Assembly: GCA_001873365.1 (NCBI GenBank)
Contig: MNYZ01000083.1
Location: 1 to 64,000 of the forward strand
DNA length: 64,000 nucleotides
Direction of reading: 5' to 3'
Source: Oscillatoriales cyanobacterium CG2_30_40_61
GTDB taxonomy: Bacteria > Cyanobacteriota > Cyanobacteriia > Cyanobacteriales > Microcoleaceae
The notes below the pieces were generated by a model. The model saw nothing but the letters and a program-made list of their open reading frames with translations. It made no database searches and was not told the DNA's origin. The position numbers were made by a program, and so were the translations under genes. Position 1 is the stretch's first letter; every line of letters starts with the position of its first letter. Positions 6,000 through 54,515 of this stretch are shown here, one piece after another.

Positions 6000-7988
6000 C
6001 TAACGTTCTGTGGCTAACCAAGCCCGCAGAACCTCTCCCACTGACCAGGCTTGGGCAATACAACCCCGGGGGTGCATGGGGGCATTACCATCAAAAATTT
6101 CACTGATTGTTCCTAGTCCCCCGGTGGTTAGATGGTTGCTAATCGGTTCTAGGAAACTACGGGCCACCGTAGGATTTTGAAACACCCGTAAATGAGCGAT
6201 CACAAAGGGCCCCAACAGCCAAGCCCAAACGGTTCCCTGATGATAGGCACTATCCCGTTGTACCGGATTTCCCTCATAATATCCCCGATAGTGGCAATGA
6301 TTCGGAGCCAGCGATCGCAATCCTGATGATGTTAACAAAAACCGTCCGCAGGTTTCAACCACGGCCTTTTGTTGGTCAGGAGATAGGGCGCTGTGGGGGA
6401 GGGAAACGGCAAAAATTTGATTGGGTCGCAGGGAAGCATCATCACCATAAATCCCATCAATCACATCGTAACAATAGCCCAATTCTGGATTCCAGAACCG
6501 TTCAAACCGAGCTAGGGCGCGATCGGCTAAGGCGTCATATTCTTGATAGGGTCTGCCAATTTGACGGGCAAATTTTCCCATAATTCGTAGGGCGTTATAC
6601 CACAGGGCGTTAATTTCCACGGGTTTACCGATGCGCGGAGTCACCACCCAATCCCCAATTTTGGCATCCATCCAGGTTAACTGTGATCCCTGTTCTCCGG
6701 CGTAGAGTAAACCATCGCCCGGATCGAGGTGAATATTATAGCGAGTTCCCCGACAATGATATTGAATAATATCAGCTAACACCGGGAATAAATTCTCGAC
6801 AATATCAATATCTTCGGTGAGGTCATAATATTGACGGATCGCCTCAAAATACCATAGGGTGGCATCAACCGTATTGTAGTCTGGGTTTTCTCCGGCGTCG
6901 GTGAAACGGTTGGGTAACATTCCTTCCTCGACACACTTGGAGTAGGTATAGAGAATGGCGCGGGTAATTTGCAGGCGTCCGGTGGTCATGGTAATCCCGG
7001 GTAAACTGATCATCGTGTCCCGTCCCCAATCCCCAAACCAGGGATATCCGGCGATAATAGTTTTACCAATAGGATTTTCAGGAATAGCACGATTGACCAC
7101 AAATTGATCGGCGGCAAATACCAACTGTTGTACCCATGCGGGTACTTCCCTAATATTGCTCGGACAGCTATCTTGCCAGTATCCTAATAATTTGCGTTCG
7201 TAGGTACGACGGAGTTCTAGGGCGGCTTCTGCATTTAAATTGGGGTTGGGTTCGGTACTCGCAACAAAACAGAGGGACTCCCCCGGATGCAAGGTGGCGC
7301 TGAAGGTGGCAATATGAAGATGATCCTCGTGATCCATGAGGCCGCGATCGCGTTCCCTAGCTAAATCAAAGTTATAACACCATTGATGGGTGGGTTGTAC
7401 TGTTCCGCGATCAGTGAATAAATAAATCGGGGTAGCCTGGGGAAAGGCGGTAACACATAGCCCGTTTTCCACCGCTTCCGCCTGCATTTTCCAATTCCCA
7501 GCATGGGTATCGCTATGATAGTCTCGATAATTCACCAATGCTTTTAGGGTCAGGGTGATTGGCCCTGAAGCCCGAGTTAAGCTATAACGAACATAGGTAA
7601 TATTAGCCTCGGGCTGCATCCAAATCCGTTTTTCTAAGAGGGCGTCCGCGCAGGCAAATTTCCAAGTCGGTATGGTGCGGTCTAAGTGAAATTTTTCAAT
7701 ATGATGATGTCCATAACCATTAACTGCACCCCCACTCCAACAATTCGTATAAAGGGGATAAACTTGTTCGTGATATTCTACAATTTCGTCTACTTTTGTA
7801 ACTAATAAAGTCCGTCCTAATGGGGGGTTTAAAGCCGCTACTAATAAACCATGATAACGGCGTGTCAGTAAGCCTGCTATTGTTCCCGAAGCATAGCCAC
7901 CGATGCCATTAGTCACTAACCATTCCCGTGTTTGGGCACTGGGCAAATCACCACAAATTTCTCGTCCGAAATTAATACTCATACCCAA
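6000..7988 (-). CDS. Amylo-alpha-1,6-glucosidase, archaeal-type glycogen debranching enzyme
   Basis: A 662-aa protein with the GDE N-terminal beta domain (EWLVTNGIGGYASGTIAGL, RRYHGLLVAAL, residues 20-55) and a C-terminal (alpha/alpha)6 glucosidase domain (GYPWFGDWGRDTMISLPG; PNRFTDAGENPDYNTVDATLW; DGLLYAGEQGSQLTWMDAKIGDW). These are the conserved GDE_C blocks with catalytic acidic residues. It removes alpha-1,6 branches from glycogen in the cytoplasm. It lies 20 bp upstream of the HAD gene on the same strand and is divergent from the GH57 gene, forming a small glucan-metabolism group. M3 is an alternative start. Confidence 0.93.
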   Translation of the reverse strand: MGMSINFGREICGDLPSAQTREWLVTNGIGGYASGTIAGLLTRRYHGLLVAALNPPLGRTLLVTKVDEIVEYHEQVYPLYTNCWSGGAVNGYGHHHIEKFHLDRTIPTWKFACADALLEKRIWMQPEANITYVRYSLTRASGPITLTLKALVNYRDYHSDTHAGNWKMQAEAVENGLCVTAFPQATPIYLFTDRGTVQPTHQWCYNFDLARERDRGLMDHEDHLHIATFSATLHPGESLCFVASTEPNPNLNAEAALELRRTYERKLLGYWQDSCPSNIREVPAWVQQLVFAADQFVVNRAIPENPIGKTIIAGYPWFGDWGRDTMISLPGITMTTGRLQITRAILYTYSKCVEEGMLPNRFTDAGENPDYNTVDATLWYFEAIRQYYDLTEDIDIVENLFPVLADIIQYHCRGTRYNIHLDPGDGLLYAGEQGSQLTWMDAKIGDWVVTPRIGKPVEINALWYNALRIMGKFARQIGRPYQEYDALADRALARFERFWNPELGYCYDVIDGIYGDDASLRPNQIFAVSLPHSALSPDQQKAVVETCGRFLLTSSGLRSLAPNHCHYRGYYEGNPVQRDSAYHQGTVWAWLLGPFVIAHLRVFQNPTVARSFLEPISNHLTTGGLGTISEIFDGNAPMHPRGCIAQAWSVGEVLRAWLATER

Positions 7989-8300
7989 TCAGTTATCAGT
8001 TATCAGTTATCAGTTATCAGTTATTAGTTAAGGAGTATACAGTTAATTTATTAATTCTTAAACTGCTAACTGGCAACTGGTGACTGAATTATAGCGTTTT
8101 ATTGTCAAAATTAAAACCCCCACTTTGTTAGGTTGAATCCGGATTAAACAGATTACTCCAGTCTGACGGAATATTGCCCAGCATTAAAATCAGTAATCAG
8201 TTAAAGAGTATACAGTTAATTTATTAATTTTTAAACTGCTAACTGGAGTATAATTAAATTTGTATTTTTATTGTCTGGCAATTGCTCAAGATTTAGTTCA
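7989..8300. repeat. Gap with tandem CAGTTAT heptamers and a 48-bp direct repeat
   Basis: Starts with about five consecutive CAGTTAT units (7990-8030). A 48-bp segment beginning agttaaggagtatacagtt at 8026 recurs at 8199 with two mismatches. No ORF is supported. It separates two divergent glucan genes, so their promoters should lie here. The heptamers match arrays elsewhere in the window and resemble the short tandemly repeated repetitive sequences reported for filamentous cyanobacteria. Confidence 0.7.
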
Positions 8301-13395: not shown

Positions 13396-14433
13396 TTAGG
13401 GTTTGGGTTTCAAGGCTCCTGATGTTTGCAAGTGATTTAGGGTACGATTATTTGTACAAAATAGCACGGTGATCAATTCTGCTGTTAAAATCTCTACTAA
13501 AGTATAGACTGCTGCTTCCGATTCGGCCGCGGCTTGCAAAAATGGCCAGGCAAACCCAGTTAGATTCGCACCCAGGGCGATGGCTTTGGCCGCATCTAAA
13601 CCACTGCGTAACCCCCCCGAAGCAATTAAGGGAATATCGGCAGACACTTGCCGAATACTGGTAATACAATCGGCCGTGGGTATGCCCCAATTGGCAAAGG
13701 TTTCCCCTAGACGACGCTGTAGGGGGTCTTGGGCGCGTTCTCCTTCGATTTTAGCCCAGGAGGTTCCCCCCGCCCCTGCCACGTCAATAGCGGCCACTCC
13801 GGCCTCAATTAATCGTTTGGCCATCACGGCATTAATCCCATTTCCGACCTCTTTGGCAATTACCGGAACCCGAAGTTGAGTACATAATTGTTCTATTTTA
13901 TGAAATAATCCTTTAAAATTAGTATCTCCTTCGGTTTGAATACATTCTTGTAAAGGATTTAGGTGTAAAATTAGGGCATCGGCTTCTAATAAATCTATGG
14001 TTTTTAAACATTGTTCTAAACCATATTCATAGTTTAATTGAACGGCTCCTAAATTAGCAAATAGTAAGATATTGGGGGCGAGCGATCGCACCGCAAAAGT
14101 ATCAGCTACATCGGGATTTTCTACTGCTACGCGTTGGGAACCGACTCCCATAGCTATATGATAATGTTCAGCCACGGCGGCTAACCGATAATTAATTAAT
14201 TTTGCCTGTTCCGTGCCTCCGGTCATGGAGGAAATTAATAAAGGTGCTCCTAATATTTTACCTAAAAATGATGTGGTCAGATCAATTTCACTACGGTTTA
14301 AATCGGGTAAACAACAATGGGTAAAATCATAACGTTCTAACCCCGTTTTTGTTTGTCGAAACTGCACATCTTCTTCTAAACAAATGCGTAGGTGATCGGC
14401 TTTGCGGTTTTGAATTTGATTAGAAAATACCAT
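13396..14433 (-). CDS. fni: Type 2 isopentenyl-diphosphate delta-isomerase
   Basis: A 345-aa FMN enzyme that interconverts isopentenyl and dimethylallyl diphosphate for carotenoid, phytol and quinone synthesis. Characteristic are [16 protein letters not shown] at the N-terminus, [46 protein letters not shown] and [20 protein letters not shown], the flavin phosphate site. Length is normal. It is upstream of sppA on the same strand with a 42-bp gap. Tandem repeats fill the upstream intergenic region. Confidence 0.96.
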
Positions 14434-14708
14434 ATCAGTAATCAGTAATCAGTTAACAGTTAACAGTTATCAGTTATAGCAAGAGGCAATAGGGAATAGG
14501 GAATAGGCAATGGGCAATAGGTAAATACTTACTGTGAGCAGCTTTTAGCTTTCAAGAATGTCCTAATAGATGTGGCGACTGCTATCTCAGTTTCTAGTTA
14601 TCAGTTATTAGTTATTCGTTATTCGTTATTAGTTGAGAAGTTAATAAATTAACTGTAAACTGTAAACTTACCAACTGTTAACTGATAACTGTTAACTGTT
14701 AACTGAAT
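14434..14708. repeat. Tandem heptamer-like repeats around a GGCAATAGGGAATA low-complexity core
   Basis: Both ends carry CAGTTA(T/A)C-type units (for example taacagttatcagttat, and aactgttaactgataact in inverted sense near 14680). The middle has repeated gcaatagggaatagg units and a cggactgctat-like repeat fragment, gtggcgactgctat, also found inverted at about 4923. No ORF is supported. The opposite orientation of units at the two ends gives a large inverted repeat. Confidence 0.65.
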
Positions 14709-15605
14709 TCAGGATCGTCGAATATTAAAACAACACCAATCTTGACGACGCCAGAGGGTAGCAACGACCCAGCCCTGTTGTTCTAAAGTATCTGCAATTG
14801 GTTTAGCTTGATCCATTAAAATTCCGCTTAAAATCGCCCAAGTATTTTTCTTGGCTATAGCATTAAATTGAGGAATTAAATCGATAATTACTTCTGCTAA
14901 AATATTACAAACAATTCCATCTACAGGTTGCTCTACTGCTTGAATTACTTGCTGAATACTGCCATCTTGAATATTAATTCTTTCCGGTGCAATTTGATTT
15001 AATTCGCAATTTTCGTAAGTTGAACGAGTTGCTAACGGATCATTATCAACAGCATAAACCTTAGAAGCCCCTAATAAAATTGCCCCAATTGATAAAATAC
15101 CAGAACCGCAACCAATATCTGCAATCACCCCCTGGTTGTGTTCTCCACCTAATCGCATTTCCAAGGATTCTAAACACAGTTGAGTTGTGGCGTGGGTTCC
15201 GGTTCCAAAGGCAACGCCGGGGTCTAAACGTAATAGAATCCGATCGGGATTTTCGGGTAATTCTAACCAAGCCGGGTAAACTAAAAAGCGATCGCCAATG
15301 GGTGTCGGTTCCCAATATTGTTTCCAACTACTTGACCAGTCCTGTTCATCAATTAAATCCCAAGTCACCGCCGGAATTGGCATTTCTAAACACAAAGCAT
15401 CTTGACGTAATAATAAAGCCAGGGCTGCTAAATCGAGCAAATGGGCTTTTTCTTCGGGGAGATAGGCTGATAACAAGCAGGAATTATTTTTAATTTGACT
15501 CGCTGTTCCTCGACAACCAAATGCTTCCATACGCCAAAAAACAGCATCTTCTAGCATCGGATCACATAATACTTTAATTTCCCACCAACTATTAGCCATA
15601 ATCAT
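14709..15605 (-). CDS. prmA: Ribosomal protein L11 methyltransferase
   Basis: A 298-aa SAM-dependent methyltransferase. The N-terminal substrate-recognition domain contains [18 protein letters not shown]. The catalytic domain contains [19 protein letters not shown] (PrmA signature), SAM-binding [19 protein letters not shown] and [14 protein letters not shown]. It trimethylates L11 of the large ribosomal subunit. Length is normal. In many cyanobacteria prmA lies next to serA, as here. Confidence 0.96.
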
Positions 15606-15881
15606 TAATCAGTTATCAGTAATCAGTTATCATTCATCAGTGTAAGAGTTATTAGTCATCAGTTAACAGTGTAAGAGTTATCAGTTATTAGTTGACAGTA
15701 AAGAGTTCATTGTTAATATTTGTGGGCTAAAAACAGTTAACTGGTACGGGCGAGTTCATCGAGATGCGTGGTGATTAACAAAGATCTAAAAGAACCCGCC
15801 CCTACGACTAATAACTGTTAACTTATGACTGATGACTGTTAACTAATAACTGTTAACTGATGACTGTTAACTGATAACTGA
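15606..15881. repeat. Tandem CAGTTAT/AACTGTT repeat block between prmA and serA
   Basis: Runs of (C/A)AGTTA(T/A)C units at both edges, direct near prmA and inverted near serA (actgttaactgatgactgtt). In the middle lies gtacgggcgag...cccgcccctac, a decayed GGGCG-type palindrome. No ORF. The layout is the same as in the fni-prmA gap. Confidence 0.65.
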
Positions 15882-31907: not shown

Positions 31908-33500
31908 ATGTCTCTCACCGAAGAAATTTTATCTCAAATCCCTGGAAACCCTTTAAACGGTCTGCGAAAAGCCGATGAACTTTGGGCGGGTTTGAAAAAT
32001 AATACTCTCCCCCTGGCTAATACGGTTACACAGGAGAGTCAACTTTTAGGAAATGTAGATTATGATCTGGTAATTTGTGGCGGAACTTTAGGAATTTTAA
32101 TTGGCGCAACCTTAGCGATAAAAGGGTGGCGAGTCGCATTAATTGAACGGGGAAAACTGCAAGGACGGGAACAGGAATGGAATATTTCTCGACAGGAATT
32201 AAAGGTTTTTGTAGAATTAAATTTACTATCTGAGGTAGAATTAAAAACAGCGATCGCCACGGAATATAACCCCGCCCGTTTAAGCTTTCCCAATAGTGCT
32301 GATATTTGGGTAAAAGACGTTCTGAATATTGGAGTTGACCCAGTTTATTTATTAGAAACTCTCAAAATTAAATTTTTAGAATCCGGTGGAATATTATTAG
32401 AAAATACGGCTTATCAGGCGGCTATTATTCATCCTGATGGTGTGGCGGTAAATGTCACCGAAATTCATTCCCCTCGCCTTGCAGGAGAGGGGTTAGGGGA
32501 GAGGTCAGAAACAATCAAAACCCGTTTATTAATTGATGCAATGGGGCATTTTTCCCCCTTAGTTCGACAGGCGAGAAACGCAGAAAAACCCGACGCGGTT
32601 TGTTTGGTGGTAGGAACCTGCGCGACGGGATATCCTAATAATCAAACGGGGGATATTTTTGCCTCCTTTACTCCCTTAAAAAATCAATGTCAATATTTTT
32701 GGGAAGCGTTTCCGGCTAGGGATGGAAGAACAACCTATTTATTTACCTATTTAGATGCTGACCCCCAACGGTTTAGTTTAGAATCTTTGTTTGAAGATTA
32801 TTTGAAACTCTTACCAGACTATCAACAAATTGAGTTAAATCAATTAACCTTTAAACGGGCATTATTTGGCTTCTTTCCCTGTTATAAAAATAGCCCATTA
32901 AAAATGCCCTGGGATCGGGTTTTTGCCGTGGGAGATAGTAGCGGAAATCAATCTCCGTTAAGTTTTGGGGGATTTGGGGCGATGGTGCGTCATTTACAAC
33001 GGTTAACAACTGGAATTGATCAGGCCTTAACTACCGATCAATTAAGTCAAAATGCCTTATCTTTATTACAACCCTATCAACCGAGTTTGTCGGTGACATG
33101 GTTATTTCAACGGTCGATGAGTGTGGGAGTTCAACAAACAATTAACCCCGAACAAATTAATCAATTATTAACTACCGTATTTCAAGGTATGGAACAATTG
33201 GGAGAACCGATTTTAAAGCCTTTTTTGCAAGATGTGGTACAGTTTTCGGCTTTAACTAAAACCCTATCAAAAACGGCGATAACTCATCCAGGTTTGATTT
33301 TTAAAATTATTCCCCAGATGGGGTTAATGAGTTTAATTAATTGGACAATTCACTACTGGAATTTAGGACTATATACGGGTTTATATCCGGTTGCAAAAAC
33401 CCTAGAACCGATGTTTAATAAATTACCCCCTGCTTCCCAATACTATTATTATCGTTGGTTAGAAGCGTGGAAATATGGTTCAGGACAGGATTATAATTAG
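31908..33500 (+). CDS. cruP: CruP-like lycopene cyclase family FAD-dependent protein
   Basis: A 530-aa flavoprotein with Rossmann motif YDLVICGGTLGILIGATLAIKGWRVALIERG (about 50-81), a mid-domain FFPCYKNSPLKMPWDRVFAVGDSSGNQSPLSFGGFGAMVRHL with the FAD GD motif, and the long C-terminal helical part of the CruA/CruP group. CruA relatives cyclise lycopene; CruP itself is linked to carotenoid and oxidative-stress functions and its direct activity is uncertain. Residues IHSPRLAGEGLGERSE are encoded by a repeat-like insertion kept in frame. CruA versus CruP was judged from overall resemblance. Confidence 0.75.
   Translation: MSLTEEILSQIPGNPLNGLRKADELWAGLKNNTLPLANTVTQESQLLGNVDYDLVICGGTLGILIGATLAIKGWRVALIERGKLQGREQEWNISRQELKVFVELNLLSEVELKTAIATEYNPARLSFPNSADIWVKDVLNIGVDPVYLLETLKIKFLESGGILLENTAYQAAIIHPDGVAVNVTEIHSPRLAGEGLGERSETIKTRLLIDAMGHFSPLVRQARNAEKPDAVCLVVGTCATGYPNNQTGDIFASFTPLKNQCQYFWEAFPARDGRTTYLFTYLDADPQRFSLESLFEDYLKLLPDYQQIELNQLTFKRALFGFFPCYKNSPLKMPWDRVFAVGDSSGNQSPLSFGGFGAMVRHLQRLTTGIDQALTTDQLSQNALSLLQPYQPSLSVTWLFQRSMSVGVQQTINPEQINQLLTTVFQGMEQLGEPILKPFLQDVVQFSALTKTLSKTAITHPGLIFKIIPQMGLMSLINWTIHYWNLGLYTGLYPVAKTLEPMFNKLPPASQYYYYRWLEAWKYGSGQDYN
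32470..32513. repeat. Palindromic repeat inserted in frame within cruP
   Basis: ccccTCgCCTtgcAGGaGAgggg followed by ttaggggagaggtc matches the ccctctcc...gagagggg family found inside the gene at about 42900. It is translated as SPRLAGEGLGER, a loop-like stretch. The length (about 45 bp) keeps the frame. Confidence 0.6.
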
Positions 33501-33943: not shown

Positions 33944-34110
33944 AATAGGACTTACGCATGGTGCCCTAGAAACCGGGTTTTTTAGAAAATATCTGGGTAA
34001 GAACGAAGTATTTTTGTAAAAAAAACCGAGAAACCGGGTTTTTTAGATAATATATGGGTCACACGAAGTATTTTCACAAAAAAACCCGGTTTCTGTGCGT
34101 AAGTCCTATT
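33944..34110. mobile_element. MITE-like element with 15-bp perfect terminal inverted repeats
   Basis: aataggacttacgca at the left end and tgcgtaagtcctatt at the right end are exact inverse complements. Inside are two diverged copies of a unit starting gaaaccgggttttttaga and ending cgaagtattttt, then a final aaacccggtttct. No ORF. It lies between psaK and the NDH-2 gene and may affect their expression. The TIR is reminiscent of dispersed cyanobacterial miniature elements. Confidence 0.7.
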
Positions 34111-41658: not shown

Positions 41659-43608
41659 TTAATTCGATAGTTTAACAAACTCCCCTGACGAATACAATAA
41701 TAAATCCTGAAAACGGTTAGAATTGTTGAGGGTGAGGGTATAGCTTTGGGATTGTACATCACTAACTTGATAGTCTTTAGTGACTAATGTATTTTTAGGG
41801 GTGGGGAAAAATAGGGTTTGGGGATTGAATAATTTAAATTTATATTGGTTGGGCTGGGGGGAATTAACAATAATTTTATCACTGGGTTCTCGCAGGGTAT
41901 TCATCATCACTAATAAAATATTATTGCTATAAAATCTCACGGTTTCAAAGGGTTTATCCGTGGATTTCTGTTCAAATTGAACATTAAAACGATTATCAAG
42001 GTCAAAAAGATAAAGTCCTTGAATTAATCCGGTTCTGTATAGATAAGCTCCTCTAAAATTATCGGGAATAGTGGTAATAATCGGGGATTCTATGGGCATT
42101 TTTTGTAAACTAGATAACAGACTTGCAGAAATTTCCCCAGCAAATTTCCAGTTTTGGTTAGCGGTATTGAGAGATAATCCTAAACTGACTAATAAAATTG
42201 AAGATAGAATTAAACATAGTTGAAAATGACTAACTAGAATGGTAAAAATTAAAGCGATATAAATAGAAGTAAAACTAGACGCCCAATATAAATATCTTTC
42301 TCCTTGACTATCAAAGGGGGAGACGGAAACATTAATGGCGGGTAACACACAAATCCAAAATCCTACAATAATTAAAATTAGGGTTTGGGGGATATTAGAT
42401 TGGAATTGATTTCGATAATAACTGACAATTATGGCAAATATAGAGATTAAAACTAAACCGAGAAATGCTATAATCCAAAAGTTTAAATTAGAGTTAAATT
42501 GAGCCGATAGGAAACTCCGTGAGGGATAAATAATTATATTATATAAAATTTGTATAGGATTAAATTTAAGATGAATTCCTTCTCCATAACCTCCAACTAA
42601 GGTTCCTAATTTGAGATATCGCCAAATAAAATAAAACCCTAAAACTGCTATATAAAGCAGACAATTTGTTAAGATTTTTTTGATGTTCTTCGGCTTTGCT
42701 TGGGAATATTGATATAATTCATAAGCGATAATTAACCCCGGAAAACTAACAATAGATTCCTTGCATAATAAGGCGGCTAAAAAGGCAATTAAAGAGATTA
42801 ATAATTGTAGGGGTTGATGAAATTGTTTAAAGGTTTTACTTCCCCTAACCCCCCCTTGGTAATGGGGGGCTGTTTCATTCTCGGCGGAAACTTGTGTGAC
42901 CTCTCCCCCAGCCCCTCTCCTGCGAGGAGAGGGGAGAACAATTCTGAATATTAAATCTCTTAGAGATTTAAAAATATTAATTACTCCCCCTTCCCTCGCA
43001 GGGAAGGGGGCTGGGGGGTTAGGTCTTAGGGTTGACAATAGAAAATGAAACCCCCTACTTTGGTAAGGGGGGGAACTGGAAAGGGTCAAGTTGGGATAAT
43101 TAATGGGTATTAAATAGATAGAAAAGGATAGTAATGCAAAAAAAGTGGCGATAACATCTGTTCGGGCGGAAATCCAAGAAACAGCTTCCGAATGGGAGGG
43201 TAATAATAGAAAAATAAATCCGGCGAAATAGGGAATAAACCGTTTTAATTTTGAATCTAATCTTAAATTTAAACTGAATAAAAATGCTATACTTCCCACT
43301 AAAAAAGAATTAGCTAAATGAAACCCAAAATTTGTCAAATGATAACCCAAAGGGTTCAAACCCCAGATTTTATAGTCTAAAAAACTAATTATTCCCAAGA
43401 GAGGACGAAAAAATAACGATTTACCATGCTGTTGATTGAACCATAACCCAAACGGCCCTAATTTAGATAATAGTGCAATTAAAACAAAATCATCCGAGAG
43501 AAAAAAACTATTCAGGATACTACAATAAGCAATAAATCCAGTTAGGGCAATAATTCCGATTAAAATAATTGAATAAAAATATATTTTTGGGAAAGATTTT
43601 GTGTTCAT
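41659..43608 (-). CDS. GT39/PMT-like polytopic glycosyltransferase with repeat insertion
   Basis: A 649-aa membrane protein with about 10 helices. It contains FFLSDDFVLIALL (DD in the first external loop, as in protein O-mannosyltransferase-like GT-C enzymes) and SHSEAVSWISARTDVIATFFALLSF, resembling TMTC-type proteins. Residues about 177-255 (RPNPPAPFPAREGG, LPSPRRRGAGGEV) are not family sequence; they are translated palindromic repeats. It probably transfers sugar from a polyprenyl donor at the outer face of the plasma membrane. Acceptor unknown. First gene of the three-gene minus-strand group. Confidence 0.72.
   Translation of the reverse strand: MNTKSFPKIYFYSIILIGIIALTGFIAYCSILNSFFLSDDFVLIALLSKLGPFGLWFNQQHGKSLFFRPLLGIISFLDYKIWGLNPLGYHLTNFGFHLANSFLVGSIAFLFSLNLRLDSKLKRFIPYFAGFIFLLLPSHSEAVSWISARTDVIATFFALLSFSIYLIPINYPNLTLSSSPPYQSRGFHFLLSTLRPNPPAPFPAREGGVINIFKSLRDLIFRIVLPSPRRRGAGGEVTQVSAENETAPHYQGGVRGSKTFKQFHQPLQLLISLIAFLAALLCKESIVSFPGLIIAYELYQYSQAKPKNIKKILTNCLLYIAVLGFYFIWRYLKLGTLVGGYGEGIHLKFNPIQILYNIIIYPSRSFLSAQFNSNLNFWIIAFLGLVLISIFAIIVSYYRNQFQSNIPQTLILIIVGFWICVLPAINVSVSPFDSQGERYLYWASSFTSIYIALIFTILVSHFQLCLILSSILLVSLGLSLNTANQNWKFAGEISASLLSSLQKMPIESPIITTIPDNFRGAYLYRTGLIQGLYLFDLDNRFNVQFEQKSTDKPFETVRFYSNNILLVMMNTLREPSDKIIVNSPQPNQYKFKLFNPQTLFFPTPKNTLVTKDYQVSDVQSQSYTLTLNNSNRFQDLLLYSSGEFVKLSN
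42838..43078. repeat. Cluster of palindromic repeats kept in frame within a coding sequence
   Basis: About 240 bp with at least four hairpins: cccccc-ttggtaat-gggggg type, cccctctcctgcgaggagagggg, aaatctcttagagattt and ccccttccctcgcagggaagggg. The whole stretch stays open in the frame of the surrounding gene and adds about 80 residues between membrane helices. Confidence 0.75.
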
Positions 43609-54380: not shown

Positions 54381-54515
54381 AGAAACCGGGTTTCTGAAAT
54401 CCTATAGATTTTCTATCTAAATCAATGGTAGAAACCCGGTTTCTACAGCAAAGAAACCGGGTTTCTGAAATCCTATAGATTTTCTATCTAAATCAATGGT
54501 AGAAACCCGGTTTCT
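54381..54515. repeat. Two exact tandem copies of a 64-bp palindromic unit (71-bp period)
   Basis: Copies at 54381-54444 and 54452-54515 are identical, separated by acagcaa. Each begins agaaaccgggtttct and ends agaaacccggtttct; each end is itself an inverted repeat (AGAAACC/GGTTTCT) and the two ends are complementary. Located between bvdR and a convergent gene, so may also act as terminator. Confidence 0.85.

Follow-up and report, generated by a model that had tools for sequence, protein, structure and literature searches.

A MITE nested in a palindromic repeat as a 92-codon in-frame insertion in a Planktothrix membrane-protein gene

The window analysed here (64,000 nucleotides of contig MNYZ01000083.1) comes from a draft genome of 119 contigs (G000) that belongs to Planktothrix, a genus of bloom-forming cyanobacteria. 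It carries a gene for a multi-pass membrane protein in which repetitive DNA forms an insertion of 92 codons (Table 1). We consider it very likely that a MITE landed in an older palindrome that was already inside the gene, and that both are in frame and persist as tolerated selfish DNA. According to this scheme, a REP-like palindrome would have sat in frame in the gene, a non-autonomous MITE of the ISPlr1 type would have transposed into the loop of the palindrome, adding 204 bp together with its target duplication and keeping the frame, and the nested insert, with a total length that is again a multiple of 3, would have remained as a protein-coding segment. Members of the same palindrome family would have entered many further Planktothrix genes without breaking the frame, much as Rickettsia palindromic elements (RPEs) do. 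Since ISPlr1 prefers such palindromes, a gene that contains one would carry a landing pad.

Table 1. Host gene, insertion and component parts, in window coordinates
Feature	Position	Strand	Evidence
Host gene, multi-pass membrane protein of predicted GT-C fold	41659..43608	-	ORF, homologues, AlphaFold, Foldseek
Whole insertion, 276 bp (92 codons), missing from 7 Planktothrix homologues	42835..43110	-	Homologue alignment
Outer palindrome (RR/REP-like), part at lower coordinates than the MITE, + strand CCCCTAACCCCCCCTTGGTAATGGGG	42838..42867	-	Also without MITE in P. rubescens PCC 7821 (L035/L061); 33 sites in G000
Outer palindrome, high-coordinate side, TACTTTGGTAAGGGGGGGAACTGG on the + strand	43053..43085	-	
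Imperfect 10-bp target-site duplication, low-side copy CTTGGTAATG	42855..42864	.	Sister copies have intact 10-bp duplications
Imperfect 10-bp target-site duplication, high-side copy CTTTGGTAAG	43058..43067	.	
ISPlr1-type MITE, ~193 bp	42865..43057	.	8 G000 sites; copies in 10/10 Planktothrix genomes searched
Terminal inverted repeat of the MITE on its low side, GGGGGCTGTTTCATTCTC (consensus CAGGGCTGTTTCATTCTC)	42865..42882	+	Matches ISPlr1 IRL CAGGGCTGTTTCA
Degenerate terminal inverted repeat of the MITE on its high side, + strand AGAAAATGAAACCCCCTA	43040..43057	-	
Inner core GACCTCTCCCCC...GGGGGGTTAGGTC, encoding PNPPAPFPAREGG...PSPRRRGAGGEV on the - strand	42898..43025	-	Also occurs without MITE ends
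Small core palindrome CCCCTCTCCTGCGAGGAGAGGGG	42912..42934	.	
Small core palindrome CCCCTTCCCTCGCAGGGAAGGGG	42987..43009	.	
25-bp segment forming the 5' edge of the insertion, reading AATACCCATTAATTATCCCAACTTG on the coding strand	43086..43110	-	Common to G001, partly to G005

A reading made earlier from the sequence alone had described an insertion of ~240 bp and ~80 residues at 42838-43078; the insertion is real, but its limits had to be redrawn as in Table 1. Alignment with homologues that lack it, as that reading had proposed, revealed an exact 276-bp gap at the insert site in 7 of the 10 Planktothrix genomes; residues 166 and 259 are adjacent or nearly so in these seven and in four more distant relatives, and in the aligned DNA the clean insertion corresponds to nucleotides 499-774 of the host gene. 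Distant homologues with the same residues encoded by different DNA were looked for and none was found, which leaves the repeat origin of the segment unrefuted. The mechanically called host ORF has 649 aa, and homologues without the insert ~557 aa. On the gene strand the frame is open through the whole insert, as had been claimed, and each of the other five frames contains 4-8 stops. The insert would be translated, into peptides predicted to include PNPPAPFPAR and GAGGEVTQVSAENETAPHYQGGVR, and the earlier statement that the repeats create a new protein segment holds at the level of the reading frame.

The host protein had been called GT39-like. Neither Pfam nor NCBIfam names it or gives a GT39 profile match, and a sequence search of solved structures found no match. 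An AlphaFold model of the insert-free homologue from another Planktothrix genome (G009), built from 14 sequences, has a pTM of 0.86, and its best Foldseek matches are PglB, ArnT, STT3 and Pmt4 (E-values 8e-5 to 8e-4), with modest TM-scores of 0.31-0.44 to these GT-C enzymes. The protein is thus predicted to be a member of the GT-C fold superfamily, the glycosyltransferase label following from the predicted fold alone, and "GT39-like" is correct only at the fold level. The insert lies between the predicted membrane segments 151-169 and 269-287, which agrees with its placement in a loop by the sequence-only reading, and in the model the site is found at the end of helix 146-171, directly before helix 174-190. 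We suggest three reasons why the gene is open and the insertion tolerated: 204 bp is a multiple of 3, most copies of the core leave one frame open, and the site lies in a turn between membrane helices; the insert is probably harmless to the protein. The host gene of this strain could instead be a pseudogene in decay and the insertion never have faced selection, which would suit a 92-residue insertion in a non-universal gene and the split of hypF at a similar repeat in G009 (see below). We regard this as highly improbable, given that there is no stop or frameshift across the 649 codons, that outside the insert the protein is 93% identical to the insert-free G009 homologue, that the lengths of both the MITE step and the whole insertion are divisible by 3, and that the palindrome-only allele of P. 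rubescens has an intact frame.

As a single strand, the insert folds into one nested hairpin with an MFE of -125.4 kcal/mol, compared with -84.6 +/- 5.6 kcal/mol for shuffled versions (z = -7.3; none of 200 shuffles as good). The cluster of four or more palindromes reported earlier, if these are taken as independent, is rejected in favor of one nested structure with orthologous strata, in which an ISPlr1-type MITE occupies the loop of a palindromic RR. Other candidates were rejected as well. In Rfam the insert scores far below the gathering scores and the sub-threshold matches reflect just the hairpin, which argues against a structured RNA family; a conserved protein domain is contradicted by the lack of the segment in homologues, and an origin from a phage or plasmid by the lack of matches in two collections (phage and plasmid).

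ISPlr1 is described as a 1423-bp element of the ISAs1 family with ends CAGGGCTGTTTCA and TGAAACAGCCCTG and a 10-bp duplication (PMC4766695, Chen et al. 2016); it was reported from no sites other than palindromic RRs, including RRs within mcyD and mcyA (PMC4766695). The consensus ends of the MITE family match those of ISPlr1 exactly. Searches with the CAGGGCTGTTTCATTCTC ends returned 47 matches in G000 at <=2 mismatches and 0 for the reversed control; the terminal inverted repeats of the window copy have 2 mismatches on one side and are degenerate on the other. Five sister copies examined (L125, L126, L127, L129 and L133) are flanked by exact 10-bp duplications; exact duplications of sister copies read ccaaaaaccc, cccattaccc, ccctttatcc, ccttaaaaag and cttaaaaatg. 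The two TTACCAA copies on either side of the window MITE are 204 bp, i.e. 68 codons, apart. By these ends and duplications, we assign the ~193-bp element as a putative ISPlr1-derived MITE. Insertion into palindromic RRs is seen not only for the window copy but also for L006 and L002 elsewhere in the same genome (duplications ccttaaaaag, cttaaaaatg), and such nesting is explained by the target preference of ISPlr1. A 1423-bp element with ISPlr1 ends, adjoining an ISAs1-type transposase match, is present in P. rubescens PCC 7821 (G001, L263), and the ISPlr1 transposase presumably mobilised the MITE. In G000 and G009 no ISPlr1-like transposase was found at E<=1e-15, so the MITE may now be immobile there.

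Several related arrangements were observed. A second MITE of ~144 bp has the same ISPlr1-type ends and another interior (L125, L126, L128-L130), and several ends of this type are located at contig ends of G000. A MITE copy at ~1470-1710 of L004 (G000:C3), with one end truncated, is flanked by a duplication of ~25 bp (aaacaacaatatcctctattttccc) instead of the usual 10 bp. In G009, L135 (G009:C1:4264210-4264471) consists of five tandem 61-bp units, each with a solo MITE end and a CCGTGCACGG palindrome, an array apparently derived from an element-target junction.

Comparison of alleles revealed the order of the strata. P. rubescens PCC 7821 has at this site only the outer palindrome (pattern CCCCCC..TTACCAA..GGGGGG), in tandem form and in frame, and represents a surviving intermediate; G000 has the MITE with one palindrome; and in a metagenome assembly (G005) the MITE sits in the first of two palindrome units, Ns upstream obscuring the frame. 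Homologous recombination may have carried the insert-bearing allele between Planktothrix strains, in which case the insertion would not have been made in this lineage; this is compatible with the nested origin proposed above and is a possibility of some weight, short of being probable. Over most of the gene G000 is closest to the insert-free G009 (96-97% at the start and 93-94% at the end), while just before the insert it is closest to the insert-bearing G001 (94% vs 87%), although the windows compared beside the insert are short (56-68 bp). Near the junction, the likeness of the G000 allele to G001 and G005 exceeds that of its overall nearest relatives, so it may have moved by recombination.

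The inner core (GACCT...AGGTC, ~128-134 bp) lies in frame in a 5-oxoprolinase gene of G003 (L144), and a MITE-like copy in a CHAT/TPR gene of G007 (L165). Together with the host gene these make three genes, in all of which the second half of the core (PSPRRRGAGGEV) has the same reading frame, the first half sharing it in two. In-frame inserts that vary among genomes occupy four positions of the 5-oxoprolinase gene, and every ORF is open. Of 42 core copies, 35 have an open frame on the coding strand (PNPPxPFPxREGG...PSPRRRGxGGEV or a close variant). The segment might be useful, i.e. a basic loop rich in Pro, Gly and Arg might be kept by selection, for instance to bind a partner or adjust the enzyme; the survival of the open core frame, the positive net charge of the segment (11 K+R vs 5 D+E) and the persistence of the MITE allele in two genomes (G000 and G005) and of the palindrome-only allele in a third would agree with this. 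However, the copies with an open core frame are mostly intergenic, and most homologues manage without the segment. Moreover, codon position 3 of the core linker is less variable (0.207) than positions 1 and 2 (0.338 and 0.415), the reverse of coding constraint, so the copies give no indication that the peptide is under selection; the MITE DNA of G000 and G005 is 99% identical, too little divergence for dN/dS to be tested. We therefore regard a useful segment as improbable and retain the reading of tolerated selfish DNA, in which the segment probably has no function. Of the ~45 core or MITE copies examined, only 3 are situated deep within long ORFs, which indicates that genes do not usually tolerate the MITE. 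In G000 the repeats recur at 8 MITE sites and 33 palindrome sites, for the most part between genes.

The window contains further small repeats. At 32469-32507 the small core palindrome occurs once on its own (CCCTCTCCTGCAAGGCGAGGGG). Two identical 64-bp copies with starts 71 bp apart, bounded by AGAAACCGGGTTTCT palindromes, occupy 54381-54515, and a related pair lies at 33965-34059. Tandem arrays of 7-bp units (AGTTATC and AACTGTT types), which resemble cyanobacterial STRR sequences, are found at 7973-8050, 14419-14641 and 15586-15881.

The outer palindrome is found inside genes across the genus. In a census with one 22-base pattern (<=3 mismatches) plus flanks, which misses diverged copies, sites were classed from sequence alone, a site being counted as coding if spanned by an ORF of >=200 aa with 20 codons to spare; 27 of 41 sites were coding in G001, 18 of 30 in G009 and 4 of 33 in G000, where 29 lie outside ORFs, in line with the earlier claim that the repeat families are also intergenic. 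Flanking background positions pass the same test in 74%, 79% and 73% of cases in G001, G009 and G000, so that relative to this background there is no depletion in G001 (p = 0.29), a mild one in G009 (p = 0.02) and a strong one in G000 (4e-13). After merging of orthologous sites, 32 coding, 43 intergenic and 3 partial clusters remain. Among the genes that carry it, some of them for housekeeping enzymes, are those for PurL, NadE, CobN, HypF, a ketoacyl synthase, Lnt, a PFOR, an NRPS and a protein with an FGE-sulfatase domain. PurL has ~40 extra residues at the repeat (query 463-503 vs residue 437 of 3viu), and NadE also has extra residues there in comparison with the solved structure 4f4h. Unlike the core, the outer palindrome is read in several frames. 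Most intergenic copies of G000 have arms of the type G6-TTA-G6-ATC and many coding copies G7-TTA-G7-T, which, read by eye, may define two subfamilies; by eye, no GTAG or CGTC tag stands out at the palindrome ends in the listed copies.

One of these genes, hypF, is a single ORF in G001 (L253) and two ORFs in G009 (L307 2523-2581), where the repeat has one C fewer in its C7 run and lacks some of the tandem units present in G001. The split is either real slippage or a homopolymer sequencing error. This one-C difference suggested to us that C7/G7 tracts could act as slippage on/off switches. That they do so, and that coding palindromes serve throughout the genus as in-gene landing pads to which ISPlr1-type elements home and through which proteins, housekeeping enzymes included, grow in frame by nesting, is a speculation that we hold to be rather doubtful.

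In-frame palindromic inserts are best known from the obligate intracellular bacteria Rickettsia and Wolbachia, and the route of their mobility there is unclear. Planktothrix is free-living and culturable and offers many in-frame palindromes, ordered strata, surviving intermediates and empty alleles. With an identified IS at hand in such a genus, the seeding of protein segments by selfish palindromes becomes testable. For annotators, segments of the PPxPPLxxGG type in Planktothrix proteins should be regarded as repeat-borne, and their homopolymer tracts can break genes.

Small non-autonomous repeats are familiar in cyanobacteria from the Nezha MITE and the small dispersed repeats of Nostoc, which the elements described here resemble in being small, non-autonomous and cyanobacterial, a likeness of description, not of sequence. 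REPs are likewise short GC-rich palindromes, single or grouped, some of them in genes of known function, and intragenic REPs of the GTAG/CGTC families occur in many species (PMC3733652); the RR palindrome of G001 and G009 differs from them in lying inside genes nearly as often as expected by chance. A close relative is ISPlr1 with RR1-7 of the Planktothrix mcy genes, for which two reports describe the same ends and 10-bp duplication, insertion into palindromic RRs of 43-45 bp, and RRs inside coding genes (mcyD, mcyA) (PMC4766695, PMC9366434). The window element differs from it in being a ~193-bp MITE without transposase, and the frame survives here, whereas published ISPlr1 insertions inactivate. 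The parts of these reports that were consulted do not discuss an in-frame state of RRs in many genes, and the literature covered by our partial search yielded no account of nested in-frame growth or of cyanobacteria with in-frame palindromes in such numbers. RPEs are palindromic elements found in intergenic regions and, in frame, in unrelated and often conserved genes, with a preferred open frame, and reviews describe other MITE-gene fusions (PMC2229807, PMC10969869). The resemblance to RPEs proposed by the sequence-only reading is borne out in effect: as with RPEs and their Wolbachia equivalents, palindromes lie in frame in unrelated genes, the core or MITE in three genes and the palindrome in the 32 coding clusters. 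The differences are a different phylum and two nested elements, the comparison being one of descriptions and not of sequences, and the ISPlr1-type ends and duplications, which give the Planktothrix elements a clear mobilisation route. By analogy, the Planktothrix repeats would work like RPEs via a different, IS-linked route.
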